Assembly: GCA_963921825.1 (NCBI GenBank)
Contig: OY997589.1
Coordinates: 2,666,001 to 2,730,000, forward strand
Source: Erodium maritimum
Lineage: Eukaryota > Streptophyta > Magnoliopsida > Geraniales > Geraniaceae
Reading direction: 5' to 3'
Length of the DNA: 64,000 nt
Position 1 is the first letter of the stretch. Each line of letters opens with the position of its first letter. A model generated the notes under the pieces. The model was not told where the DNA came from and searched no databases. It was given only the letters and a program-made list of their open reading frames with translations. The position numbers were made by a program, and so were the translations under genes. Of this stretch, positions 1,860 through 24,290 are shown piece by piece.

Positions 1860-2029
1860 TTTATATGGTTGAAAGCTAGCAAAGTTGGTGCTCAATTTCT
1901 CATTCTCCTATAATTATCAATGCAACGAGTCCACAACCACATGTTTTTTCATGAGATGATCAAGTCAAGTCTTTGATTACTTTTGCGGATGATTGTTCTT
2001 AACAAGTTTGGTTCAAGTTGAATGAATTG

Positions 2030-2038
2030 TATATAAAA
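2030..2038 (+). promoter_or_regulatory. TATA box of receptor kinase gene A
   Basis: TATATAAAA lies 60 bp upstream of the chosen ATG at 2098. The block upstream (about 1955-2020, with motifs GATGATCAAGTCAAGTC and TTAACAAGTTTGG) also occurs upstream of gene B at about 20150-20215, so the two paralogues share proximal promoter sequence by descent. Confidence 0.6.
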
Positions 2039-2097
2039 TGTATCCATACATGTGTTACAGAAATCACACCAAGCCACACCACACCCAAAACTACAAC

Positions 2098-5000
2098 ATG
2101 ACTCTGTTTGGTTCATCTTTTGCCATACTCCATCTTCTTCCCATTTTTTCGCTTTGCTATCCGTCACCAGTTACTGCAAACAACAATGAGACTGATCGGT
2201 TGGCATTACTCGAATTCAAGTCCGGAATAAGTGACCCTTTTGGTGTCATGGCCTCATGGAATGGCTCCATCCATTTTTGCCATTGGAATGGTGTTACTTG
2301 TGGACTAAGGCACCAGAGGGTCATTGGTCTGGACCTAGGCTCGAATAGATTGGTTGGTTCCATATCTCCACACATTGGCAACTTAAGCTTCCTCGTAAAC
2401 CTCGTCCTCGAAAACAATAGCTTCACAGGCCAAATCCCTCCTGAGCTCAGCCGTTTGCATAGGCTTCGGGTTTTGAGTTTGGCGAATAACTCACTGGTGG
2501 AAGGAATCCCATCCAACTTGTCTAGTTGCCTCAACCTCGTTAACATTACTCTGAGTCGCAACCTTCTTTCTGGGATCATTCCTGCTGAGATCGGTTTCTT
2601 GACGAACCTCAAGGAACTATCTTTAGCTCATAACAATCTCACAGGTATTCTCATAAGAATAAGTCATTTTGACTTTGTATTCTGCTTTTCATTGTACTCC
2701 CCTTCATAGTATAATGAAATTTTCCCCTCGTTTATAAAAAAAACAATCTCACAGGTAATATTCCTTCTTCTCTTGGGAATTTGTCGTCTCTACGAAAACT
2801 CTACGTGCCCTCGAATAATCTTGGTGGGAGAATCCCTTACACTCTCGGCCGATTGAAAAACCTCTCGTACGTTGGACTAGGGGATAATAATTTGGAAGGT
2901 ACCATCCCTTCCTCCATTTTCAATCTCTCTTCTATGGAGAGCTTTGGGGTGTTTAAGAACAAACTCTATGGGAAACTTCCCTTAGATTTGGGCATTCTAT
3001 TTCCGAATCTTGAATACTTCGGTATTTTTGACAATCTGTTTACTGGAATTATCCCTCCTTCGATATCCAATGCCTCGAATCTTCAAAGATTAATTCTTGT
3101 TACAAACAAACTCAGTGGACAAGTGCCAAATTTAGATAACCTTCACAAACTTGAGTGGTTGAACATAGGAGCCAACAAGCTAGGAAGTGGAAGGGAAGGG
3201 GACTTGAGATTCATCTGTACTCTAACTAATGCCACCAGTTTAAAGTACTTGATTATAAGAGACAATAATTTAGGGGGTGAATTACCACATTCTTTGGCTA
3301 ACTTGTCATCCACCAAAGTATTAATCATTGGTTCCAATCCAATAAGTGGAAGAATTCCCGACGGGATAACGAATCTCAAAAGCTTGGAAGTACTTTCAGC
3401 AGATAACAACCGATTGTCCGGTAGCATTCCTGAAGATATTGGAAAGCTTGAAAGTCTCCTTTACCTCGAGCTTTACGACAATGAGTTCGTTGGAAATATT
3501 CCAGCTTCCATCGGAAACTTGGGAGGTTTAGTAAGTCTTCTGTTACAAGGAAACAAGCTTCAAGGTATCATCCCATCAAGTCTAGGATACTGCCAATCTT
3601 TGTTGCAATTCAGTATTGCTGATAATAATATCAGTGGATCCATACCGCCAACACTTTTCACCATCTCATCTCTATCAGTAGGACTCGACCTGTCTCGGAA
3701 TAAGTTGTCTGGTTCCCTCCCTGAGGAAATTGGAAATCTAAATAATTTAGGGAGGTTTTATGTTTCTGGAAACTTGTTGACGGGTGTAATCCCCGTTGGT
3801 TTTGGTAGTTGCTCAAGGTTAGAACATCTGGGGCTGGATGGGAACTTCTTTCATGATATCATTCCATTATCTTTCGCTTCTTTGAGAGGTTTGCAATATT
3901 TGAACCTTTCTTATAATAATCTGTCCGGAGAGGTCCCTGGTTTCTTAGTAAGCATCCCCTTTCAAAATTTGGATTTGTCGTTCAATAACTTTTCCGGTTC
4001 ATTACCTAATGGAGGCATTTTCAAGAATGCAAGTGCAGTTTCAGTTCATGGAAACAATATGCTATGCGGTGAAACCCCAAGCCTTCGTCTTCCAGTGTGC
4101 ACATCTGGGGATCGGGATCGAAAGAAGATGAGAATGACCTTGAAGTTGAAGATCATTATCAGTATTGTTTGCTCATTACTTGCTTTGCTTTTGGTTTTCA
4201 TTACTCTCTTGTTTTTGTGGTCAAAGAAGAAAAGTACGAGAACTACACCAAGTTCTTCTGAGAATTCTCTATTGCAAGTATCGTACCAAACTCTTTTTAG
4301 AGCAACTCAGGGGTTCTCTTCCACAAATTTAGTCGGGACAGGAAGTTTCGGTTCTGTATACAAAGGAATTATATCAGACCCTCACAGAATTGTCGCTGTG
4401 AAAGTGTTTCACCTTCAACAAAGAGGTGCTTTTAGGAGTTTTATGGCCGAGTGTGATGCCTTGAGGAATATTAGGCATCGAAATCTTTTGAAAGTAATCA
4501 CTGCATGTTCAAGCATCAATTCTAGTGGGGATGATTTTAAGGCCATCGTTTATGAGTTCATGACTAATGGGAACCTGGATCAATGGTTGCATCCGGCTAC
4601 TGGAGTGGATTGCCAGCACAATCCAACAAGAAAGCTGAATCTTCTCCAGAGGCTAAGCATTGCAATCGACATAGCTTGCGCGTTGGATTATCTACATCTT
4701 CAATATGGTCAATCACCTATCGTCCATTGTGATCTGAAGCCAACCAACATTCTTCTCAACGAGGAAATGACTGCACAAGTTGGTGACTTTGGATTGATGA
4801 AGTTCCTCTCTGGACGTACCGGTAACTTTCCAACAAGCGAAACAAGTACCACAGGACTACGAGGAACAATCGGTTATGCAGCTCCAGGTAACTTGTTAAC
4901 GGTTGTATGATACTGAAATGATCAAACCCGTTACTTGATTTTTTTTTTGATAAGCGCTAAAAATTTTATTCGATGGTCATTCTCCAAGAAGGAGAAGCCA

Positions 5001-5585
5001 AAAAGCAAGCAACCACGATTACAAAAGTCTCCATAAGAGAAACAGGGCTCAAACCCTTAACAAAAAACGACCAGAGTCATCCAGTCAAAACCCGTTACTT
5101 GGTTAATTGTTATGTTGATTGCAGAGTATGGCATTGGAAGTGAGGTTTCAACCTACGGTGATGTGTATAGCTACGGCATCCTCCTACTTGAGATGTTTAC
5201 CGCGAAAAGACCTACAGATGACATGTTTAACAACAACATGAATCTACATAACTATGTCAAGATGGCTTTGCCTGACCAAGTTGATGAAATTGCGGACCCA
5301 ATAATTGTTCAAGATGCACATGTGGATGTTGGTGACAGTGAGAGATACCAGAAGGTTATGGAGTCGTTGGTTTCGATCTTTGGTATTGGAATCGCGTGTT
5401 CAGAGGAATCACCGAGAGAAAGAATGAACATTAGTGATGCTTTGGAACAGTTAATACTCGTGAGGAACAAGCATGTAAGGGTAGTTTGTATCCCTCTTTT
5501 GCTTTGAAGTTTTGAATTCTTGAGGCTTAACGATTTTTGGTTCCGACTGCAGGTCATACCTAGGAGGCGTGCTCGTGAAGTCTGA
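2098..5585 (+). CDS. LRR receptor-like kinase A (subfamily XII, EFR/Xa21 type)
   Basis: Inferred coding exons 2098-2644, 2755-4887, 5125-5474 and 5553-5585 give 1020 aa. The start MTLFGSSF matches paralogue B; an in-frame ATG at 2038 would only add a non-hydrophobic leader. Order: signal peptide, LRR cap (NETDRLALLEFKSG, then CHWNGVTC), about twenty 24-residue LRRs, LRR-end cysteines, a membrane segment (IIISIVCSLLALLLVFITLL) and a Ser/Thr kinase. Visible kinase sites are GTGSFGSVYKG, VAVKVF (lysine), IVHCDLKPTNILL and DFGLMKF. Cys in place of Arg before the catalytic Asp marks a non-RD kinase, the class typical of microbial-pattern receptors. The last two introns match the paralogues. The first (2645-2754) is unique to this copy and coincides with a retroposon insertion; unspliced, the frame stops at 2707-2709. 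The ligand cannot be predicted. It is either a functional surface immune receptor or, if that intron is not removed, a pseudogene. Confidence 0.85.
2648..2741 (+). mobile_element. 94-bp A-tailed retroposon forming an intron in gene A
   Basis: A 16-bp direct repeat AACAATCTCACAGGTA (2632-2647 and 2742-2757) flanks a 94-bp segment that ends in an A-rich tail (TTTATAAAAAAA) directly before the second copy. This is the layout of L1-mediated retroposition. Paralogue B has the uninterrupted site at about 20874-20890. The target contains CAG|GT, so both duplicated copies supply a splice site: donor at 2645, acceptor ending at 2754. Confidence 0.75.
4938..5087 (-). mobile_element. Short retroposon in the kinase intron of gene A
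   Basis: A 14-bp direct repeat AAACCCGTTACTTG (4924-4937 and 5088-5101) flanks about 150 bp that begins with a poly-T run followed by GATAAGCGC. Read on the minus strand it is a 3' end of the form AATAAAATTTTTAGCGC..ATC plus poly-A, like the LINE tail at 9949-9976. It lies in the intron 4888-5124; the same intron in gene B is only 89 bp. It is a 5'-truncated LINE or a SINE. Confidence 0.7.
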
Positions 5586-6180
5586 TCATTCCGGTCATTC
5601 ATTTGGTATTGTCGAAGTGATCAAGATTTGAATTGTACTTCTACTGCTTACTAGTTTCATAAATATTGTTTTTCGGTAATGCAATTATTTTTGAGTATCT
5701 CATATACTTAGTGTGTACGCTTGAAATAAAGTTGTCGGGTTTGGAAATGCCTATGTTGTCAAGGTTCATACGTAGAATGTAAACATACTTAGTATTCTTG
5801 AATTCTCAAGTGGGCACCTTTGTTCATACTTTTTTTGGTCATTATCGGCTTATTTATGTAGAGTTCTTATGTAGTATTTTGTTCTATATGGACAGTAGTA
5901 AATCTAATATTCAAAACTGAACAAAAGATTCACCCCAAAAATCTATGGATTCATAAAAATGAACCGATGCGATTCAGTTTCAAACGAACACCAATATCTT
6001 GATTTTTCAACCCCCGATCTAAGGACCTAGTCGATAAAATTGCGAAATGTATAATAAGAGGAAAATACGGAACAATATTTAAAGTACAGAAAATAAACAA
6101 AGGGCCCAAAATCTTACGTGTTCGGCAATATGCCTACATCCACGGGACAACGAAGAGCTCCTCGTATTAACCGAGAAATA
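5586..6180. other. Intergenic: 3' flank of gene A, no gene seen
   Basis: This is AT-rich sequence after the receptor-kinase stop, presumably including its 3' UTR. No coding frame or recognisable repeat was found. Confidence 0.5.
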
Positions 6181-6188
6181 ATCCGAAG

Positions 6189-9100
6189 ATGAGTGTCATC
6201 CCCTCAGACTTCCTAAGATCTTGTGGTTTGAGCTCTGATTGGTTAATGATCCACACTCCTGCTTCTGGTCTCTCGGGGGTATTATTACTTGCTGGAGAAG
6301 TAACTCTTTTAAGCTGGATAGATCTCTCCCCACTAAAAATGCTCTCTACCGGTGGGGCTCAACCATCAAAAATTCAGTCCCTCTTTGTCTAATTAATGTC
6401 TACGCTCCTTGCTTGGGACCAGCCAAGGCCTCCCTTTGGAAAGACATTGAGAAAGAGCTTATGGGAACCTCTGGTCTTATCATTGCTGGTGGTGATTTCA
6501 ATTCAGTTCTTTCTGTCTCTGAGAAGCGTGGGGCTCAAGCCAACATGGCAGAGGTGCTGTTATTTGAAGACTTCTTGAATCAGAACGCTCTCATTGATAT
6601 TCCTATGCAAGGAGGGGAATTCACTTGGTATGGCCCTAATCAAAAGCTCTCTAAACTTGACAGATTCTTGTTAAATGCAGATATCTTGTCCTCCTTTGGG
6701 GCTCTTTCTCAATTCAATTACCCAAGAGGCTTCTCAGATCATAGGCCTATTCTTCTGAAATCTGCTTGCTTGGACTGGGGGCCAAGACATTTCAAATTCA
6801 TCAATGCCTGGCTAGAGGACGACATATTTCTTCCTCTTGTTAAAGAATCTTGTGAGTCCTTCTCCTTTTCTGGTGCCCCTAGTTATATTCTATGGCAGAA
6901 ATTGAGGGCTCTTAAGCCCATTTTAAAAGAGTGGAACTCTCCAGTTTTTGGCCACCTTGACAAAGGTTGTAATGATCCGAAACTGGATATTGATAGGCTT
7001 GATCTCCTGTCTGAATCAAGGTCTCTCTCAGACTCTGAGATTGCTCTAAGATCTCTCTCTGAAGCCCTGCTTATTCAGAAATCTAAAAGAGCTGTTTCAC
7101 TTTGGAGACAAAAAGCACGATTTCTTAGGCTTAAAGAGGGTGATAAATTTTCTAAACTTTACCACATTCTTACTAACTATAGAGCTGCAAAAAATGCTAT
7201 TGTGGAGATTAAGGTGGGAGACACTTCTTATTCTGAGCCATCCCGGATTAAATTTCAGGCTTCATGCTTCTTTAGCAATCATTTCAGTGCCAAGAGTCAT
7301 GATCTTTGGGAGCTGCCTTCTCTCCCTTTCAAGCAACTTTCTGCCTCTCAAGCCTCATTTCTTGTGACACCATTCACTTGTGAGGAAGTGGTTACTGCAA
7401 TTAATAGATGCAATGGTTCAAAGGCTCCTGGTGCTGATGGGTTTACCCTAAAGTTTTTTCAAGTGTGCTGCGAGATTGTGAAGGTGGACTTCATGAATTT
7501 CATGCTAGCTTTCCATTCCTTCCACACCATTGGAAAAGGTAACAATGCCACTCTCCTTGCTCTCATTCCAAAGACTGATCATACCACTCAATTTTCTGAA
7601 TTTAGACCCATCAGCCTTGTTTCTGCTTCTTATAAGATTCTTGCTAAAGTCCTATCCAAAAGGCTTAAAGAATGCATCAGTTTCATTATAAGTGACAATC
7701 AGTCAGGTTTTATTCAAGGAAGGCAAATTCTTGATGGTATGCTCATAGCCACTGAACTTGTTCATACAATTAAAAAGTCCAAGGAGCAAATCACCATTAT
7801 TAAGCTGGATTTTGAAAAAGCTTTTTACACTCTTAACTGGGATTATCTTGGTCACTGTCTCACTGTGATGGGATTCCCAGAGAAATGGAGGCTTTGGATG
7901 AGAAGCTGCTTTCAGGCCCACATCTCAGTGCTTATCAATGGATCTCAGTCTGATGAATTCAAGATGGGTAGAGGCATAAGGAAAGGTTGTCCTCTCTCCC
8001 CTCTCCTATTTGCTATTGCTGGTGAGGGTCTCCATCAAGTCCTTTGCAAAGGAATCGGGGATGGTAAATTTGCAGGGTACAAATTTGGATCCATTGGTCC
8101 TGAAATCTCCCATCTCCAATTTGCTGATGATACAATCTTGTTCATCAAAGGTGGGCCTTCTGAGTTGAGAATTTTGAAGCTTGTCTTGATTGGTTTTGAA
8201 TTCTGCTCTGGTTTAAGAATCAATTTCTCAAAATCAAGTTCTTGTGTTTTGAATCCCCTTGATCTCTCTGGTGAATCTGTGGCTGATATTCTGGGTTGCT
8301 CCATTTGTGCTCTTCCTATATCTTATCTGGGGTTTAATCTGGGAGCTAACCCTAGAAGGATCAAAACCTGGGATCCAGTTGTTTCAAAGTTCAAGAGGAA
8401 ATTAAATCTTTGGCAAGCTAAACACTTAAGCTTTGGGGGTAGATTGACCTTGATCAAATCCACACTTAATGCCCTTCCCTTATTTTATATGTCCCTCATG
8501 AAAGCACCTGTTGGAGTTATTCAAAAGCTGGAAAAATGGCAAAGGGCCTTCCTCTGGGGGTCATCTGCTACAAAGAGATCCTTGCACAAGGTCAAGTGGA
8601 GTACTGTGTGCCTTCCCAAAGAAGAAGGAGGGCTTGGTGTGAGATCTCTGTCCAAAATGAATGAAGCTCTCCTCTCAAAATGGTGGTGGAGGTTCTGTAC
8701 TGAGCATGACTCTCTTTGGAAGTTGGTGCTATGTGCTAAGTATGGTTGGAATGCTCAAGATTGGAACCTACTCTCTGCAGGGTCCATTGATAAATCCTCT
8801 TGGCTCGGACATCTTCAATCACTTTCCTCTGACCCTCAGTTCAGCTCTCTTCTTGGCCATTCTGGTATATGTTGGTCAATTGGTGATGGTAATAGAATTA
8901 ATTTTTGGTCTGACATTTGGCTTGGCCCTCTTCCTCTGAGAGACATGTTTGGAAGCCTCTACTCCTTGTCTTCTAATAAAAATGGGAAAGCCATTGAGTT
9001 TTGGTCAGGTTCTGATTGGCTCCTCAACCTTACTGGTACCATCTCTGATTGGGATCTTTCTCAAAAACATGCCTTACTCTCATTGATTTCTAGCTCTCCT

Positions 9101-9976
9101 ATAAATCTGGAGTTCAGGGACTCTCCAAGTTGGATTTGCAGCAAGTATGGCTACTCTGTTAGCAATTTCTTTCATTTCCTTGTGCCTCAAGGTACATCTG
9201 TTTCATGGGGATCAGTTCTTTGGGAATTTGGTCTGCCTCCCAAAATTGCTTCATTTACCTGGCTTTGTTGCCTTAATGCTATTCCAACAAAATGTTTCCT
9301 TGAGGAAAGAGGGCTCAGAATTTCCATCCAGCAATCCCAATGTCCTTTCTGCAGATCAGGTTTTGAAGATGCTTCTCATCTCCTGCTCCATTGTCATTTG
9401 GTCTGGATCCTCTAGTGCAGAATTTTCTCTTGGTGGTCTCTCACCTGGGTTATTCCCAGTGATTTTGGATCCCTCCTGTGTTCTTGGAAAGGTCTCCTGC
9501 CAAGCTCAGCATTCAAATATTGGAAGGGAGTTGCAGGCTTCACATTATGGGAAACTTGGCTTGCCATAAATAATTTTGTCTTCAACAATGAAGTGGTTGA
9601 TTGGGGTTCAATCCTTAGGAAAATTCAGATCAACTCATTTCAAGCTCTCAAGGCTAAGGATGGCCTTTTAGTCAATTTCTCAGTAACTGAATGGATTAGG
9701 AATCCATTGGCCTGCATTTTGAAGACTACCAACCATTTCAGAGCTGCTGTCCCTATATAGTGCTGCAAGAGAAGCTCATAACCTGCAGAATCGGCTGTCT
9801 GATGTCTCTTGCTTTGTACCAGCAGCTTTGTTCACGTTTTCATTTCTCATTTGGCTTAGTTTAATTGCTTAGCTTCAAATTGTCTACAATCTCTTGTAAT
9901 TCGGCTGTTTAACAGCATTCTCTTGTTCCATCCTTTGGATCAGTTGAATAAAAACCTCGTTGATCAAAAAAAAAAA
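6189..9976 (+). mobile_element. 5'-truncated L1-type LINE with poly-A end
   Basis: This non-LTR retrotransposon carries endonuclease, reverse transcriptase and zf-RVT regions and ends in ..TTGAATAAAAACCTCG..GATC plus an A-run at 9966-9976. The 5' side starts inside the endonuclease, so ORF1 and the first endonuclease motifs are missing. I looked for a target-site duplication between the two ends and found none that was convincing. Confidence 0.85.
6239..9760 (+). pseudogene. LINE ORF2 (endonuclease-reverse transcriptase), one stop from open
   Basis: The frame runs from 6239, stops at TAG 9413-9415, then stays open in the same phase to TAG 9758-9760. Endonuclease remnant: GGDFNS and the FSDHRPI motif. 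Reverse transcriptase: FRPISLVSASYKILAK, GRGIRKGCPLSPLLF and the catalytic box FADDTILF (FADD for YADD). Near the C-terminus is a zf-RVT segment (WEFGLPPKIASFTW, CPFC..H..C). The LINE resemblance also extends a little upstream in another phase (about 6189-6275), pointing to one frameshift near 6275. Apart from that and the 9413 nonsense codon the frame is clean over about 3.5 kb, so the insertion looks relatively recent. It separates receptor kinase A from truncated copy C. Confidence 0.85.
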
Positions 9977-10024
9977 TCAATTCTCTATTTCTTAATACAA
10001 GACGATAATCCACAAAAAAAAAAC

Positions 10025-11625: not shown

Positions 11626-11690
11626 AGGTTTGAAATTTCTCAAAAACTATAAAAAGTCGTCCAAACCTATTATCCATTTAATAAAAAGTT

Positions 11691-13423
11691 ATTTCGTTCA
11701 ATAACTTTTCTGGCTCACTACCTAAGGGAGGCATCTTCAAGAATGCAAGTGCAGTTTCAGTTGAGGGAAACCATATGCTATGTGAAGGAGAAATCCCTAG
11801 CCTCCGTCTTCCAATATGCACATCTGGTGATCGAAAGAAGATTGAAATGACCTCGAAGTTGAAGATCATTATCGGTGTTGTTTTATCATCGCTAGCAGTA
11901 TTTCTGGTGTTTATTTCTCTCATGTTTTGGTTGTGGAAGAAGAAAAGTAAGAAAGTTATACCGAGTTCTTCTTTCGGGAATTCTCTATTGCAAGTGTCGT
12001 ACCAAACTCTTTTTAGAGCCACTGAAGGGTTCTCTTCCACTAATTTGATCGGGACAGGAGGTTTCGGTTCTGTGTACAAAGGAGTTTTGCTAGATCCTCA
12101 CAGAATGGTTGCTGTGAAAGTGTTTCACCTTCAACAAAGAGGTGCTTCTAGGAGTTTTATGGCTGAGTGCATTGCCTTAAAGAACATTAGGCATCGAAAT
12201 CTTCTAAAAGTAATCACTGCATGTTCAAGCATCGATTCTCGTGGGGATGATTTCAAGGCCATAGTTTACGAGTTTATGGCCAATGGAAACCTTGATCAAT
12301 GGTTGCACTTGGATACTGGATCAGATGGCCCGGACGAGCCAACAAGAAAGCTGGATTTTCTTCAAAGGCTAACCATTGCAATCGACGTAGCTTGCGCGTT
12401 AGACTATCTACATCGTCAATATGGTCAAACACCCATTGTGCATTGTGATCTGAAGCCAACCAACATTCTTCTCAATGATGAAATGACCGCTCAAGTTGGT
12501 GACTTTGGGTTGATGAAGTTTCTTTCCGAGAGCACTGGTAATTTTCCAACAAGCCAAACAAGTACTACAGGGCTAAGAGGAACAATCGGTTATGCTGCTC
12601 CAGGTATATATATTTACCCATCTGTCTAACGTTGTTTCCAAACCTTTTCAAACGTTTCATTATCACATCCTAACCGAGGCAAACGTTTCGTTACAATTCC
12701 TAACTCAAAAGGTTTGTTTTTTACAATTCCTAACTCAAAGGTGGTATTTTTTTACAATTCCTAACTGCAAAAAAACAACTACTTTTTGTAGTACGGTACC
12801 ACCTTTGGGTTAGGAATTGTAAAAAAGAAACCTTTTGAGGTAGGAATTGTAACAAAACGTTTACCTCGGTTAGGATGTGATAATGAAACAACGTTATCCC
12901 TATTGCTATTGCCAAAACTTGTTATTTGATTAATTACAATGTTTGATCGTAGAGTATGGCACTGGAAGTGATGTTTCAACCTACGGTGATATGTATAGCT
13001 ACGGCATCCTCCTACTCGAGATGTTTACTGCAAGAAGGCCTACTGATGACATGTTTAACAATAACTTGAACCTTCACAACTATGTTAAGATGGCTTTGCC
13101 CGACCAAGTTGCTGAGATCGCAGACCCAATACTTGTTCAAGAAGCTCAGGACAATGTTGTTGACAGCGAGAGATACCATAAGGTTATGGAGGCGTTGGCT
13201 CAGATTTTTGGTATCGGAATTGCTTGTTCCGAGGAATCACCAAGACAAAGGATGAACATTAGTGATGCTCTGGCAGAGCTAATTCTCATCAGGGACAAAC
13301 AGGTATTGAAAATTTATGACTTGTATCTCTGTTGTTTTGTAAGTTTTGAATTCATGAGGTTTTAACAATATTCGGATACATTTGCAGATCATACCCGTTG
13401 GGAGGCGTGTTCGTGCTGCATGA
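11691..13423 (+). pseudogene. Receptor kinase C, truncated: LRR ectodomain missing
   Basis: Similarity to A and B starts abruptly inside the last LRR (SFNNFSGSLPKGGIFKNASA). It continues through the LRR-end cysteines, a membrane segment (IIIGVVLSSLAVFLVFISLMF) and a full non-RD kinase: GTGGFGSVYKG, VAVKVF, IVHCDLKPTNILL, DFGLMKF. Exons are 11691-12603, 12953-13302 and 13388-13423, with the same splice phases as A and B and no stop in frame. No signal peptide or LRR cap lies upstream. A start at the ATG at 11775 (MLCEGEIPSLRLP) would give a short membrane-anchored kinase. It is most likely a pseudogene from unequal exchange or deletion, less likely a kinase-only protein. The kinase is closer to B than to A. 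Confidence 0.8.
12627..12900. repeat. Family-3 foldback MITE in the kinase C intron
   Basis: Long inverted arms: the left end TAACGTTGTTTCC and the right end GAAACAACGTTATCCC. Both arms carry CATTATCACATCCTAACCG and repeated ACAATTCCTAAC units. The whole element lies in intron 12604-12952. The same intron is 89 bp in gene B. Confidence 0.8.
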
Positions 13424-15282: not shown

Positions 15283-15615
15283 TGTTAGAGGACCAACTCA
15301 ACTAAAAGCTTAAGCTGATAGTTGAAGGCCCAATTATAGTTATATATTCTAACACGCGCCCACACGGACAAGCCCGTTTACGGGTTTGGAGATGAAATAT
15401 TTAGAAGAGAGAGATGAGCCCATTGAGAAGAGTGACAAGGGCTAGCCCATTTTGCGTAAATTTGATAAATAGAGAATAAATTAGAAATTTTGTATAGAGT
15501 GGGGTTTGAACCCCTGTCCGTGAGGTACCAGGCTCTGATACCATATTAGAGGACCAACTCAACTAAAAGCTTAAGCTGATAGTTGAAGGCCCAATTATAG
15601 TTATATATTCTAACA
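15283..15615 (-). mobile_element. SMART/TRIM miniature LTR retrotransposon
   Basis: Two 72-bp direct terminal repeats (15283-15354 and 15544-15615) begin TGTTAGA or TATTAGA and end TTCTAACA, and are otherwise nearly identical. Read on the minus strand, the repeat is followed directly by TGGTATCAGAGCC, the primer-binding site for initiator tRNA-Met. A purine-rich GTGTGGGCGCG precedes the other repeat. Total length is 333 bp with no coding capacity, which fits the SMART class of tiny LTR elements. It occupies the place where the neighbouring Copia should have its 5' LTR. Confidence 0.85.
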
Positions 15616-15645
15616 AAGGATCCTCGATACAAACAATGGCGCGAA

Positions 15646-18600
15646 ATGTTCAAAAATTTGTGCGTCAGTCATAAGGTACTTACTCATATTACAGATTCTT
15701 CACCTGCAGTACCTGATGATTTATGGATTCGACTTGATGCTCTCGTGATCACATGGCTTTATGCGACCATCCACGCTGATCTGCTCTCGGACGTCTTCAA
15801 AACAAATGCCACAGCTCTCGAATTATGGATTTCAATCGAGTCCATTTTTCGGGACAACAAAATGTCCCGTGCTTTACAACTGCAACAGCAATTGCGTTCT
15901 CTCCGCAAAGGATCACTCTCGATCACAGAGTACTTTCAGAAGCTCAAGGTTGTTTCTGACTCTCTCGCAGATATAGATCAACCTGTTTCTGATCAAGACC
16001 TGGTACTTCAAGCGCTACATGGTCTCCCAGAATCATTCAACAACACAATAGAAGTCATCCAACATCAGAACCCTATACCAAGCTTCTCTCAGGTTCGTTC
16101 AATGCTTCTTTTGGCTGAAAATCGACACAATCAATCTCACCCAAATACCCAGAACCCTGACTCATCTACACTGCTTTATCATCAATCTACATATTTACCT
16201 CACATGGGCAGAGGCAAAAATAGGGGACGGGGGCGCGGTTACAGCCGTGGCTCCGGTCGCAGCAGCAATTTTAATTACTCTGCAGGCATCCTTGGAGCTC
16301 CACCATCGCACCGCCAACAGCACACATTCCGATCTCCATCGCAAGCACAAGGTCACGCACATCACCAACAATTCTTAATTCAGGCCAGCCCACTTTATCA
16401 ACAACAGCAGCAACTGGGCTTGGCAACGGCCCAACTTCCGCCCCTCCCTCCACAGCCGCTTCAGCTCCTCGCATCTCCACTGCAGCAATCCTCATTCGGC
16501 TTTCCAGTAGCAGCCCAGCCCTTCATTGGCTCGGTCCAGCAAGGTCTCCCGGCCCAACAACAACTCTCGGCCCAACAACTCGCAGCCCAGCATCCATTTC
16601 CGGCCCAGCAGCTTCCTCTTCAGCACCTGTTCGCCTCTCCCAACAGCTACACGGGTCAAAATTCTCCACAGCAGCAAGGATTCAATCCTCCTCCCGCCAA
16701 TGCCTCTCAAGCAACAGACCTCAATCAGTTGTTCTCGACCTTAACGCTCCAACAACCACGGGACGGATGGTACATGGATACCGGTGCTACCGCACACACC
16801 GCCTCTCAATCCGGTAAATTTTCTCACGTTACTCCTTGCTTAAATTCTAGCTCAATTATAGTTGGAAATGGTGTTGTTTTGCCTGTTTACTATACTGGAC
16901 AATCTTCTATTTCATCGTCTTCGAAAGAATTTCAATTACGTAATATTCTTATCAGTCCGCATATTATTAAGAATTTAGTTTCGGTTCGTCAATTTACTAG
17001 AGATAATAACTGCTCTGTTGAATTTGATCCATGTGGATTTACTGTGAAGGACCTTCAGACCGGGACTCCTATTTTCCGTTGTAATAGCTCAGGGGATCTT
17101 TACCCTGTCACTCCATCCGCCACTCCATCATCGTCCTCGCCGTCCACCTCCTTCCTACTCACCACCGACATCACTCCTACCACTTGGCATCGTCGTCTCG
17201 GTCACCCCGGCAATCATATATTTAGATTTCTTTGTTCTAGCAACTTTATTTCTTGTAATAGGAACTCTTTGGATCACACTTGTCATGCATGTCAGTTAGG
17301 CAAACATTTGCGTCTTCCATTTTCTCCTTCTCTTTCTCGCACTAAACATTTATTTGAAATTATTCATTCCGATCTTTGGACTTCTCCTATTCCTAGTTCT
17401 AGTGGTTTTAAATATTATTTATTGCTTTTAGATGATTATTCTCATTACTTGTGGGTTTTTCCCTTACGTGCAAAATCTGAGGTTTTTAACTTGTTTACTC
17501 AATTTCACACTTTCATTCGTACTCAATTCAATCTTCCAATAAAAGCTTTTCAATGCGACAATGGTCGTGAATTCGATAACACCCCATATCATACATTTTT
17601 TAAAACTCAGGGCATTACTTTTCGCTTCTCCTGCCCCCACACATCACAACAAAATGGAAAAGCTGAACGTATGATTCGAACTGTTAACAATATGGTTCGC
17701 TCCTTTCTCTTTCAGGCCCAACTACCTCCCTCTTTTTGGGTTGAAGCTCTTCATATGGCCGTTCACACTATCAACCTCCTTCCTACTAAAACGCTATCTT
17801 TTCGAACACCTTTCGAACTACTACATAACACTTCTCCCACTTATGATCATCTTCGTGTTTTCGGTTGCTTGTGCTACCCAAACCTCTCCTCCACCACTCC
17901 TCACAAACTTGCTCCCCGTTCTGCTGCATGTATCTTTCTCGGATACCCCTCCAACCATCGCGGTTATCGCTGTCTTGACCTATCATCTGGACGCGTCATT
18001 ATCTCCCGACATGTCATCTTTGACGAGACGGTCTTCCCTTATTCCTCGTATCACTCCCTCGACTCTCGTGACTCATTTGACTTCCTAACTTGTCCCTCTG
18101 ATGACCTATCATCCCTCATTTACTCATTTTCTCCGTCCATTCCTGATGATCGCTCGATCCCTACTCAGGGATCTCCTGCCTCTTCGTCGCCTTCTCCTTC
18201 CCCATCCCATCGCATCACCAATTCTCCCTCCACCCCCTCCCCTACTCCGGTCCCGGCTCAGCTACCCGTACCTGCTCCTCCGCCTCGTCCATCCCATCCC
18301 ATGACCACTCGTAGTCAGACCGGCTCTCTTCGTCCTCGGCGTATTCTTGACCTTCATGTTTCGACTTCTAGTCTATCCCCGATCCCTCGATCCTCCTCTC
18401 AAGCTCTTTGTGATCCAAATTGGAAGCTCGCAATGGAGGCCGAAATATCTGCTCTTCGTGCCAATAACACGTGGGAACTAGTGTCTTGCCCTCCCGGTGT
18501 TAATCTCGTTGGTTCCAAATGGATATTCCGTCATAAGTTCCGTTCTGATGGATCGCTTGAGCATTACAAAGCTCGATTGGTTGCTCAGGGATATACACAA

Positions 18601-19932
18601 CAACCTGGCATTGACTACGATGACACTTTCAGTCCGGTAGTCAAGCCGGCAACCATCCGCACCATCCTTAGTCTTTCTCTCTCTCGATCTTGGCCGATTC
18701 ACCAATTAGACGTCAAGAACGCTTTCCTTCATGGCGACCTCCATGAGGTTGTATACATGAAACAACCTCCCGGTTTTCTCAACCCTTCCTTTCCCAACCA
18801 TGTGTGTCGCCTTAAGAAGGCCCTCTATGGCCTCAAGCAAGCACCTCGGGCCTGGTATCAACGTTTTGCCTCTTACCTTATTTCCATTGGTTTTGTCAGC
18901 AGTCGAGCCGACACCTCTTTGTTCATCTATCGTCACGGCACACACACTGCTTATCTTCTTCTCTATGTTGATGACATCATCCTTACTGCTTCCTCTCCTA
19001 CTCTTCTCTCTTTCCTCACTACTCGTCTTAATTCTGAGTTTGCCATGACCAATCTCGGTCCCTTACACTATTTTCTTGGCATATCCGTTACTCGAACCTC
19101 TTCTGGCTTACTCCTCTCTCAAGAAAAGTTCGCCCGAGAAATACTTGCCCGGGCAAATATGTCTTCTTGTAATCCCTGTCTTACTCCCGTTGATACAAAA
19201 TCAAAGCTTTCCTCGACATCTGGTCCGCCTGTCTCCGATCCTACTCTATATCGTAGTCTTGCAGGTGCTCTTCAGTATCTTACTTTCACTCGTCCTGATA
19301 TCTCGTATGCTGTACAACAGGCCTGTCTTGTTATGCATGATCCTCGTGAACCTCATTTCCAAGCTCTCAAACGTATTCTTCGCTACGTTCAAGGCTCTAT
19401 TACTCATGGTCTCCATCTACGTCCTTCCCCTACTCTCTCTCTCACTGCTTACTCTGATGCTGATTGGGCTGGGTGTCCTGACACTCGTCGTTCTACCTCG
19501 GGTTACTGTGTCTTTCTCGGACCTAACCTTATCTCCTGGTCGTCCAAACGACAACATGTTGTGTCTAGGTCTAGTGCCGAGGCTGAATATCGTGGTGTCG
19601 CTAACGCTGTCGCTGAGTCTTGTTGGCTCCGTAACCTCCTACTTGAGTTACACTCTCCCCTCTCCACTGCCACTATTGTCTTCTGTGATAACATTAGCTC
19701 TGTTTACATGTCTAGTAACCCGGTTCAGCATCACCGTTCCAAACATATTGAGTTGGATTTGCATTTTGTACGTGAGAAAGTTACTGCAGGTCAGGTTCGC
19801 GTTCTCCATGTGCCGTCCTCCTACCAGTTTGCGGACATCTTCACCAAAGGCCTTCCATCAGCTCTCTTTGAGGATTTCCGTTCCAGTCTCAGCATCCTTC
19901 CATACCGAGCTTCGACTGCGGGGGCATGTTAG
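15646..19932 (+). CDS. Copia Gag-Pol polyprotein
   Basis: The open frame runs 1428 aa from the ATG at 15646. The reading frame is open back to about 15610, where WREMF-type Gag sequence continues upstream, so the real Gag start has been lost. Order: UBN2 Gag (LRSLRKGSLSITEYFQKL); a Gly/Arg patch (RGRGRGYSRGSG) and a long Gln/Pro-rich linker; protease (GWYMDTGATAH, near 16765); the pre-integrase HHCC region (HRRLGHPG, CHACQLGKH); the integrase core (HSDLWTSPIP, QCDNGREFD); reverse transcriptase (KARLVAQGYTQ, catalytic YVDD near 18967); RNase H (YSDADWAGCPD, SSAEAEYR). The Gag has no CCHC zinc knuckle, and the Gly/Arg patch may take its nucleic-acid-binding role. The frame is intact, so any decay is recent; transcription is doubtful. 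Confidence 0.9.
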   Translation: MFKNLCVSHKVLTHITDSSPAVPDDLWIRLDALVITWLYATIHADLLSDVFKTNATALELWISIESIFRDNKMSRALQLQQQLRSLRKGSLSITEYFQKLKVVSDSLADIDQPVSDQDLVLQALHGLPESFNNTIEVIQHQNPIPSFSQVRSMLLLAENRHNQSHPNTQNPDSSTLLYHQSTYLPHMGRGKNRGRGRGYSRGSGRSSNFNYSAGILGAPPSHRQQHTFRSPSQAQGHAHHQQFLIQASPLYQQQQQLGLATAQLPPLPPQPLQLLASPLQQSSFGFPVAAQPFIGSVQQGLPAQQQLSAQQLAAQHPFPAQQLPLQHLFASPNSYTGQNSPQQQGFNPPPANASQATDLNQLFSTLTLQQPRDGWYMDTGATAHTASQSGKFSHVTPCLNSSSIIVGNGVVLPVYYTGQSSISSSSKEFQLRNILISPHIIKNLVSVRQFTRDNNCSVEFDPCGFTVKDLQTGTPIFRCNSSGDLYPVTPSATPSSSSPSTSFLLTTDITPTTWHRRLGHPGNHIFRFLCSSNFISCNRNSLDHTCHACQLGKHLRLPFSPSLSRTKHLFEIIHSDLWTSPIPSSSGFKYYLLLLDDYSHYLWVFPLRAKSEVFNLFTQFHTFIRTQFNLPIKAFQCDNGREFDNTPYHTFFKTQGITFRFSCPHTSQQNGKAERMIRTVNNMVRSFLFQAQLPPSFWVEALHMAVHTINLLPTKTLSFRTPFELLHNTSPTYDHLRVFGCLCYPNLSSTTPHKLAPRSAACIFLGYPSNHRGYRCLDLSSGRVIISRHVIFDETVFPYSSYHSLDSRDSFDFLTCPSDDLSSLIYSFSPSIPDDRSIPTQGSPASSSPSPSPSHRITNSPSTPSPTPVPAQLPVPAPPPRPSHPMTTRSQTGSLRPRRILDLHVSTSSLSPIPRSSSQALCDPNWKLAMEAEISALRANNTWELVSCPPGVNLVGSKWIFRHKFRSDGSLEHYKARLVAQGYTQQPGIDYDDTFSPVVKPATIRTILSLSLSRSWPIHQLDVKNAFLHGDLHEVVYMKQPPGFLNPSFPNHVCRLKKALYGLKQAPRAWYQRFASYLISIGFVSSRADTSLFIYRHGTHTAYLLLYVDDIILTASSPTLLSFLTTRLNSEFAMTNLGPLHYFLGISVTRTSSGLLLSQEKFAREILARANMSSCNPCLTPVDTKSKLSSTSGPPVSDPTLYRSLAGALQYLTFTRPDISYAVQQACLVMHDPREPHFQALKRILRYVQGSITHGLHLRPSPTLSLTAYSDADWAGCPDTRRSTSGYCVFLGPNLISWSSKRQHVVSRSSAEAEYRGVANAVAESCWLRNLLLELHSPLSTATIVFCDNISSVYMSSNPVQHHRSKHIELDLHFVREKVTAGQVRVLHVPSSYQFADIFTKGLPSALFEDFRSSLSILPYRASTAGAC

Positions 19933-20329: not shown

Positions 20330-23300
20330 ATGACTGTGTTTGGTTCATCTTTTGCCTTACTCCATCTTCTTCTTCTTCTTCTTCTTTCCCTCTGCTACCC
20401 GTTGTCAGTTATTGCTAACAACAATGAGACTGATCGGCTAGCTTTGCTCGAATTCAAGTCAGGAATTACTCATGACCCTTCTGGTATCATGGCCTCGTGG
20501 AATAACTCCATCCATTTTTGCCATTGGGATGGTGTTTTTTGCGGTCATCGACACCAAAGGGTTACTGATCTTGACCTACGCTCGAATAGATTGGCAGGAT
20601 CCATATCCCCTCATATTGGAAACTTAAGCTTCATCAGAAGCCTCTCCCTCCAAAACAATAGTTTAACTGGCCAAATCCCTCGCCAGCTCGGCCGTTTGCA
20701 TAGGCTTCAGATTTTGAATTTGGCAAATAACTCACTGGTGGAGGGAATCCCCACCAACTTGTCAAGTTGCCTCAACCTCGTTATCATTAGTTTGAGCCGC
20801 AACTTTCTTTTTGGGATCATTCCTGCTGAGATGGGCCTTTTGGTGAATCTCGAGGTACTATATTTAAATCACAACAATCTTACAGGTAACATTCCTTCTT
20901 CTCTTGGGAATTTGTCGTCTCTTCAAAATCTCTTTATGAGCTCAAATAGGCTTGGTGGGAGAATCCCTTACTCTCTTGGACAACTCACAAATCTCAAGGA
21001 GTTTGTATTAAGTGATAATAGTTTTGAAGGAACCATACCTTCCTCCATTTTCAATCTCTCTTCTATGGAGAGCTTTGGTGTGTATGAGAACCGACTCCAT
21101 GGGAGTTTTCCCTTAGATTTGGGCATCCTATTTCCCAATCTTCAACAGTTCCGTATTTTTTACAATCTGTTTACTGGATTAATCCCTCCTTCAATATCCA
21201 ATGCCTCAAATCTTCAACAGTTATACCTCGTTGGAAACAAACTTACCGGTCAGGTGCCTGATTTAGATAACCTTCAAAAACTTGAGTCGTTGATCACAGC
21301 AGAAAACGAGCTAGGGAGTGGAAGAGAAGGGGACTTGGGATTCCTCTCCTCTTTGACTAATGCCACTAGCTTGAGATTCTTGGATATAAGTGACAACAAT
21401 TTTGGAGGTGTATTACCACATTGTTTGGCCAACTTGTCATCCACCATATTGGACATAGGAATAAGAGTAAATCAAATAGGTGGAAGAATTCCGGCTGGAA
21501 TAACAAACCTCAAAAGCTTGCGAGTTTTTGGAGCACATGACAACTTATTGTCCGGTAGCATTCCCGAAGATATTGGAATTTTTCGAAATCTCCATATATT
21601 ACATCTTCACAACAATGAGTTCATTGGAAATATTCCAGCTTCTCTCGGAAACTTGGGAAATTTGATAAGCCTTCGTTTAGATGGGAACAAGCTTCAAGGT
21701 AACATCCCATCCAGTCTAGGAAAATGCCCGTCTTTGTTGGATTTATTTATTTCTGATAATAGTATCAATGGCACAATACCATCAGAACTTTTCACTAACT
21801 CATCTCAATTGTGGGCACTAGACTTGACAGGGAATAAGCTAACTGGTTCCCTCCCTATAGAAATTGGAAATCTGGATAATTTAGGCCAGTTTGGTGTTTC
21901 TGGGAACTTGTTGACGGGTGTAATCCCTAGTAGTTTGGGTAGCTGCACAAGTTTGGAATTTCTTGCAATGGGTGGTAATTTCTTCTATGGCGCCATTCCA
22001 TCATCTTTAGCCTCCCTAAGAGGTTTGCAATATCTGAACCTTTCTCACAATAATCTGTCCGGAGAGGTTCCTGGTTTCTTAGGAAGCTTTGGCCTTTTAG
22101 GATTAGACTTATCCTACAATAACTTTTCTGGTTCGCTACCTAACAAAGGCATCTTCAAGAATGCAAGTTCGGTTTCAGTTCAGGGAAACCCTTTGCTATG
22201 TGGAGGAGCAACCTCAAGCCTTCATCTTCCAATATGCACATCTAGGGATCGAAAGAAAACGGGAATGACCTTGAAGCTGAAGATCACTATCAGTATTGTT
22301 TTGTCATCACTTGCTGCATTTTTGGTCTTTATTTCTCTCATTTTTTGGCTTTTAAAGAAGAAAAGCAAGAGAGATGTACCGAGTTCTTCTTCTCAGAATT
22401 TGCTATTGCAAGTGTCATACCAAACTCTTTTTAGAGCAACTGAAGGGTTTCATTCCACTAATTTGATCGGGACAGGAGGTTTTGGTTCTGTGTACAAAGG
22501 AATTTTGCTAGATCCACCAGGAATGGTTGCTGTGAAAGTGTTTCACCTTCAACAAAGAGGTGCTTCTAGGAGTTTTATGGCTGAGTGCAATGCCTTAAAG
22601 AACATTAGGCATCGAAATCTTCTAAAAGTAATCACTGCATGTTCAAGCATCGATTCTTGTGGAGATGATTTCAAGGCCATAGTTTACGAGTTCATGGCCA
22701 ATGGAAACCTTGATCAGTGGTTGCACCAATCTATTGGATCGGATGGCACGCACGAGCCAACAAAGAAGTTGAATCTTCTCCAGAGGCTAACCATTGCAAT
22801 CGACATAGCTTGTGCGTTGGATTATCTACATCTTCAATATGGCCAAGCACCCATCGTTCATTGTGATCTGAAGCCAACCAACATTCTTCTCAACGATGAA
22901 ATGATAGCACAAGTTGGTGACTTTGGGTTGATGAAGTTTCTCTCCGAGAGCACCGGTAACTTTCCAACAAGCCAAACAAGTACCACAGGACTAAGAGGAA
23001 CAATCGGTTATGCTGCTCCAGGTATATATAATTTGCACCCTTTGCTAATGACAGTATCATGTTTCCATCATCAAACTCGTTATCTGATTAATTATTATGT
23101 GTGATTGTAGAATATGGCACTGGAAGTGAGGTTTCAACCTACGGTGATATGTATAGCTACGGCATCCTCCTACTCGAGATGTTTACTGCAAGAAGGCCTA
23201 CTGATGACATGTTTCACAATGACTTGAACCTCCGCAACTATGTTAAGATGGCTTTGCCCAACCAAATTGATAGAATCGCAGACCCAATACTTGTTCAAGA

Positions 23301-24082: not shown

Positions 24083-24290
24083 CACTGCTGACATTGGAAT
24101 TGCATATTCGGAGTTCACCAAGAGAAAGGATGAGCGTTAGTGATGCTTTGGCGGAGTTAATTCTCGTGAGGGGAAAAAAGGTGCGAACAATTTCTAATTC
24201 GCAACTTTTTTGGAATTTTGGAGGTTTCAACAATTTATGATTACCAATGCATATCATATTTCGTGAGACATTTTCGTATTACATGACCAT
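24083..24290 (+). pseudogene. Receptor kinase D, tail fragment only
   Basis: The coding trace GIAYSE..SPRERMSVSDALAELILVRGKK corresponds to the end of the second kinase exon of A, B and C. A donor-like GGTGCGAAC follows, and then a decayed match of the last mini-exon (CATATCATATTTCGTGAGACAT). The rest of the kinase is missing and the frame breaks after SE. This is the fourth, mostly deleted unit of the tandem array. Confidence 0.7.

Follow-up and report, generated by a model that had tools for sequence, protein, structure and literature searches.

The closest described route to an intron of the kind considered here is the duplicated-AGGT model of transposon insertion, as set out in the review of Yenerall and Zhou (2012, PMC3443670). 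The table of that review gives 35 intron gains by transposon insertion in Oryza, Drosophila, Oikopleura, and Zea, on evidence that is indirect, and its text holds that why such elements get spliced is not understood. The initial annotation of our locus had stated that clear cases with a dated paralogue are few; with 35 gains tabulated in 2012, the mechanism is less unusual than that wording suggests. For plants, the same review cites maize Dissociation (Giroux 1994) and rice catalase (Iwamoto 1998) as precedents, and a study of rice duplicates describes transposon matches in two of five gained introns, naming a Ty1-copia-like match and Rim2 (PMC1779517). A retrotransposon intron with target-site duplications, Doc1053, is described in the Drosophila sechellia gene GM26034 (PMC3296678). 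Introners, as treated in a survey that reports none in land plants (Gozashti 2022, PMC9860276), are multi-copy elements able to create an intron by inserting into an exon.

The locus described here, in a receptor-kinase gene (gene A), shares with the duplicated-AGGT model a duplicated AGGT target, an inserted element flanked on either side by AG|GT, and an unchanged reading frame, as the review describes them (PMC3443670). It differs in that a sense-oriented A-tail puts A ahead of the acceptor, which may lower splicing. Like the Doc1053 intron, it combines a retrotransposon insertion, target-site duplications, and a kept reading frame in what would be a gained intron; however, the second duplication of Doc1053 is reported 15 nt downstream of the intron end, whereas both candidate splice sites of gene A lie inside the duplication (PMC3296678). 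The Doc1053 intron also stands in the gene annotation, while the gene A candidate is a prediction from sequence. In the maize and rice precedents, as cited, a transposable element is likewise tied to a new plant-gene intron, but the elements are Dissociation in maize and Ty1-copia-like or Rim2 in the rice duplicates, compared with a short A-tailed retroposon in gene A. Introners are described as families of many introns (PMC9860276), whereas gene A offers a single candidate. In the open-licence literature, we found no LINE- or SINE-derived intron of this type in a receptor kinase, which is no proof of absence. The gene A case would thus be an unproven addition to a published mechanism, transposon insertion into AGGT.

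Results

Gene A and its paralogues

Gene A encodes an LRR receptor-like kinase with LRRNT_2, LRR, and Pkinase domains (Pfam), and we take it to belong to subfamily XII (Xa21-like). It lies in a 64,000-nt stretch of Erodium maritimum DNA (the window), which also carries NB-ARC genes. The coding parts of gene A and the paralogous exon used for the empty-site comparison are as follows.

2098..2644, + strand: gene A exon 1 upstream of the insertion, with LRRNT_2 and the first LRRs, ending in CAG at phase 1 (reading frame; Pfam)
2755..4887, + strand: remainder of the large exon of gene A, from LRRs to kinase (reading frame; Pfam LRR, Pkinase)
5125..5474, + strand: next kinase exon of gene A (reading frame)
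5553..5585, + strand: final exon of gene A, to the stop codon (reading frame)
20330..23021, + strand: uninterrupted first exon of paralogue B, for the empty-site comparison (sequence comparison)

Paralogue B lies 18 kb downstream and, as the initial annotation had stated, is uninterrupted: its 1024 codons read through the insertion site without the insert, and the site itself has AACAATCTTACAGGTA, identical to the target of gene A at 15 of 16 positions. With the insert omitted, A and B are 75% identical in amino acids. Across 1018 codons, dS was 0.425 and dN 0.151 by NG86 (0.375 and 0.153 by maximum likelihood), giving a dN/dS of 0.35–0.41. Among the 431 codons common to A, B, and a third copy (fragment C), changes private to A numbered 36, 21, and 65 at codon positions 1, 2, and 3, respectively. 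Because of this dN/dS and this distribution of A-private changes, we conclude that gene A was constrained for much of its history; the figures cover mostly pre-insertion time, with the periods before and after the insertion not separable in them.

Of the third copy, fragment C retains just a 3′ portion, and the insertion site falls outside it. It spans 11685–13423 as an open frame of 434 codons in three exons, representing a third receptor kinase; no LRR half like those of A and B was found upstream of it. Its first kinase intron (12654–12889) contains a 104-nt inverted repeat with arms that are 90% complementary and separated by 28 nt. Rfam matched this repeat to MIR2606 and MIR6445 on both strands with sub-gathering scores, and our guess is that it resembles a MITE more closely than it does a miRNA gene. 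Just downstream of B, a stray copy of a kinase-exon end (24115–24212) is 77% identical to B over 98 nt.

A duplicated target flanks an A-tailed insert

Exon 1 of gene A contains an exact 16-nt direct repeat, AACAATCTCACAGGTA, at 2632–2647 and 2742–2757 (spacing 110, 16/16 identical), and between the two copies lies a 94-bp insert (2648–2741) that ends in an A run. This is as the initial annotation had described it. The run comprises eight unbroken A (2736–2743), the last two of which are possibly part of the duplication. The features of the site are listed below.

2632..2647, + strand: target-site duplication, upstream copy, AACAATCTCACAGGTA (exact 16-nt repeat; carries the candidate donor CAG|GT)
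2742..2757, + strand: target-site duplication, downstream copy (exact repeat; carries the candidate acceptor CAG|GT)
2648..2741, + strand: inserted retroposon, 94 bp including the A-tail, sense orientation (its body has 39 other scored matches across the genome, 84–94% identical)
2648..2655, + strand: 5′-junction filler of 8 nt (in most copies not covered by the repeat homology, with the match starting at 2656 in 28 of 39)
2645..2754, + strand: candidate intron, 110 nt, phase 1 (predicted from frame restoration; donor and acceptor scores below)
2731..2735, + strand: candidate branch site TTTAT, inferred from the YTNAY pattern (branch A at 2734, 20 nt ahead of the last base of the acceptor)

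AG|GT stands within the duplicated target on both flanks of the insert, and excision of 2645–2754 restores the reading frame. The candidate intron, GTATTC...CTCACAG, is 70% A+T and 39% T. Precise splicing from a donor at 2645 to an acceptor ending at 2754 had been proposed on arithmetic grounds, and the arithmetic holds: with 2645–2754 removed, gene A regains a frame of 1020 codons to the stop, with two more introns in its kinase part, and is otherwise intact. The converse claim, that gene A ends after 203 codons if the insert is kept, is equally accurate, with the stop falling at codon 204. By contrast, the earlier description of an element that can “splice itself out” is misleading, as we saw no sign of self-splicing and the spliceosome would be required.

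The insert belongs to a dispersed repeat family

The segment 2600–2800 was compared with its own genome (763 Mb in 40 contigs), which gave 290 first-look candidates, 40 of which were scored. One of these was the window itself, and the other 39 lay elsewhere on contigs C1–C9, at 84–94% identity (median 91% among the scored matches from the 290 candidates). All 39 were confined to query positions 2653–2751, covering the insert and excluding the upstream exon. In 28 of the 39 the match began at 2656, with earlier starts in 2 and later starts in 9. At the other end, every one of the 39 stopped inside the A run (2736–2743) or a few bases past it, and 34 reached the end of the run. The idea that further copies of the insert might exist in the genome was therefore borne out, with at least 39 other places at 84–94% identity. 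The boundaries of the insert needed qualifying: the 94-bp length stands, while the first 8 nt (2648–2655) are not family sequence in most comparisons. A 7-mer, CTCATAA, is common to 2650–2656 and to 2627–2633, which borders the insertion site on its upstream side. This would agree with filler that reverse transcription copied from adjacent sequence, though a shared 7-mer may be chance.

Because an exact duplication, an A-tail, and interspersed repeat copies in the genome occur together, we conclude from these sequence features that this is a retroposon insertion with a target-site duplication. That an insertion took place, and that it derives from a mobile repeat, is near certain. A chance repeat was considered and rejected, given the exact 16-nt duplication and the 39 other scored genomic matches. 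Where the duplication begins, the top-strand junction is T|AA, which presumably fits the cleavage preference of LINE endonucleases.

An origin of the insert from either LINE in the window was also considered. Comparing 2632–2757 with the window by blastn returned itself, the duplication copies, the B site, and short matches (lowest E among these 0.07, for 24 nt at 9955–9978). Rfam gave three matches on 2000–5600, all far under gathering scores, and ten on the whole window, none at the gathering score and none on the insert. A collection of plasmids yielded no match to 2632–2757.

The window holds several other mobile elements. A second retroposon-like insert (4924–5104) occupies part of gene A's first kinase intron, in the opposite orientation, with a T run near 4939–4948. 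It is flanked by 17-nt copies at 4924–4940 and 5088–5104 that agree at 16 of 17 positions and include CCCGTTACTTG; the intron that holds it is 237 nt long vs. 89 nt in B. Between A and fragment C lies a LINE (6239–9980) that encodes reverse transcriptase and zf-RVT domains and has an A-tail at its 3′ end, and between C and B lies a Copia element (15601–19929) with a single 1443-codon frame and gag, integrase, and reverse transcriptase domains. The trimmed 3′ end of the exon 1 insert showed weak similarity to the LINE, with 86 of 2000 shuffles scoring as high, and to the retroposon in the kinase intron, with 52 of 2000 shuffles as high. A LINE such as that at 6239–9980, with its 3′ end weakly like the insert, is a possible kind of donor machinery.

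The donor is ordinary for the window and the acceptor context is poor

Small splice-site matrices were built on a reference set of 18 donors and 19 acceptors, chosen by eye among the genes of the window without transcripts, so that some may be wrong. The reference sites came from the kinase introns of the three copies, six in all, and from two minus-strand genes. Candidates were scored with the full matrix and references by leave-one-out, meaning that the two sets of scores are not strictly alike.

The candidate donor, CAG|GTATTC, scored 9.49, above 10 of the 18 reference donors and second among the 146 GT in 2098–4887, a score inflated by two near-identical paralogue donors (CAG|GTATTG) in the reference set. 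It is one base off these last-intron donors of B and C. By score only, the 5′ splice site appears competent.

The acceptor at 2754 scored −0.83 over its full 20 nt, under 18 of the 19 reference acceptors. Positions −20 to −5 hold 3 T, compared with 6 to 11 in the 19 references, and 6 pyrimidines, compared with 8 to 15. The acceptor core (−7 to +1), on the other hand, scored 5.69, above 9 of 19. The poor context arises because the A-tail of a sense-oriented retroposon abuts the downstream duplication, where a U-rich tract belongs, a point that the initial annotation had not raised. Still, a pyrimidine-rich stretch and the candidate branch site TTTAT stand immediately upstream of the A-tail, with no AG between these and 2754, and use of this acceptor is therefore possible. 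An acceptor at 2657 scored higher (0.76), but an intron joining it to the candidate donor would be 13 nt. In A+T content (70%) and length (110 nt), the candidate intron is within the range shown by the six introns in the kinase parts of the three copies (60–74% and 78–349 nt).

Age of the insertion

That the insertion is later than the A/B split is well supported by the sequence comparison, because the 16-bp duplication is exact, the insert has an A-tail and genomic copies, and B is uninterrupted. Paralogue B is the one relative compared, and the insert is absent from it. The initial annotation had treated B as a dated paralogue, and it was right that the insertion is younger than the duplication; as a date, however, this is weak, since an A/B dS of about 0.38–0.43 marks an old duplication. 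The nearest relatives of the insert, at 94% identity, allow an insertion age from very young to several percent.

Discussion

Our preferred reading, to which we give somewhat better than even chances, is that the retroposon inserted after the A/B split, that the spliceosome removes 2645–2754 from at least a share of transcripts, and that receptor A has been kept in use. In the proposed history, a short A-tailed retroposon, which would be either a LINE 3′ end or a LINE-mobilised SINE, inserted in sense into exon 1 of gene A once A and B had separated, presumably through target-primed reverse transcription. Its 16-bp target, with the sole CAGGT of the coding sequence, was duplicated, leaving CAG|GT at either edge of the insert. 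The spliceosome would then excise 2645–2754 in at least a share of transcripts, so that receptor A stays in use; it is this splicing that we infer. Because the acceptor is U-poor, splicing would be expected to be incomplete, with retention giving a 203-codon product. The most likely state would accordingly be a new intron of low efficiency.

The main alternative is a recent null allele, in which the insertion is not usefully spliced and gene A yields a truncated LRR fragment of 203 codons or a transcript lost to nonsense-mediated decay, the remaining gene looking intact only because the insertion is young or still segregating. We regard this as a serious contender, though one that falls short of even. 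It is favoured by the U-poor acceptor with an A-tail ahead of it, by identical duplication copies and an unbroken A run, and by the nearby presence of intact B and fragment C, which means that loss of A may be tolerated. How long an intact frame would outlast loss of function was modelled for a gene null since the insertion, assuming transitions to transversions of 2:1 and 0.1 indel per substitution, 85% of them frameshifting. Under these assumptions, the probability of finding neither a stop nor a frameshift in 3060 nt is still 0.5 at 0.2% divergence, which leaves room for a young null, and falls to 0.03 at 1% and 0.001 at 2%; for stops alone, it is 0.85, 0.44, and 0.20 at the same divergences. 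The best of the 39 scored relatives is only 94% identical (median 91%), and if a fair share of that divergence fell on the insert, the insertion would be too old for an undecayed null. The landing site also argues against a null allele, as hitting the only coding CAGGT would be a coincidence of ~0.5%, a figure that is post hoc. The coding sequence of gene A (1020 codons) contains exactly one CAGGT, at the insertion, and that of B contains two; in the large exon of A, with the insert omitted, 0.45% of 16-mers contain CAGGT and 4.4% contain AGGT. Because so few 16-mers contain either motif, a random exonic insertion would rarely be spliceable by this route. The coincidence does speak for a past in which survival hinged on splicing, although the 0.45% is post hoc and the case was picked for this feature. 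On balance, we rate splicing, at least in part, as slightly more probable than a recent null allele.

Two further alternatives differ from the preferred reading in which sites are used or in the direction of change. Another acceptor or donor could be used, leaving the insert partly exonised or mis-spliced and the transcripts mostly non-productive. For example, an acceptor at 2709 inside the insert scored −0.76, about equal to 2754, and pyrimidine-rich CATTGTACTCCCCTTCATAG precedes its cut; yet its core (−7 to +1) is poor (−0.52 vs. 5.69 for 2754) and its use would lead to a stop at codon 184, and we consider this outcome unlikely. An old intron lost from B, with the flanking repeat arising by chance, would match the general trend reported for rice duplicates, where 49 introns were lost vs. 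5 gained (PMC1779517). However, the exact 16-bp duplication, the A-tail, and the 39 related scored places elsewhere in the genome mark a mobile-element insertion, and ancient intron loss was rejected as extremely improbable.

A broader possibility, newborn intron in gene A aside, is that the retroposon family of the insert has made several spliced introns and so represents an introner-like source in a land plant. Here, the 3′ part of the insert would carry a usable TTTAT branch site before the A-tail, and the target would supply AG|GT. We hold this to be very unlikely. If true, it would mean a retroposon-driven intron source in a land plant, a group for which the 2022 survey reports no introners.

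If the insert is not spliced, the locus is nothing more unusual than a receptor-kinase family copy knocked out by a transposon. If it is spliced, gene A would represent a clean intron birth, in which the origins of the donor, the acceptor, and the insert are known, a neighbouring paralogue preserves the empty site, and the predicted protein stays the same. With the A-tail of a sense retroposon standing before the acceptor, such introns should begin poorly spliced and later gain T there.
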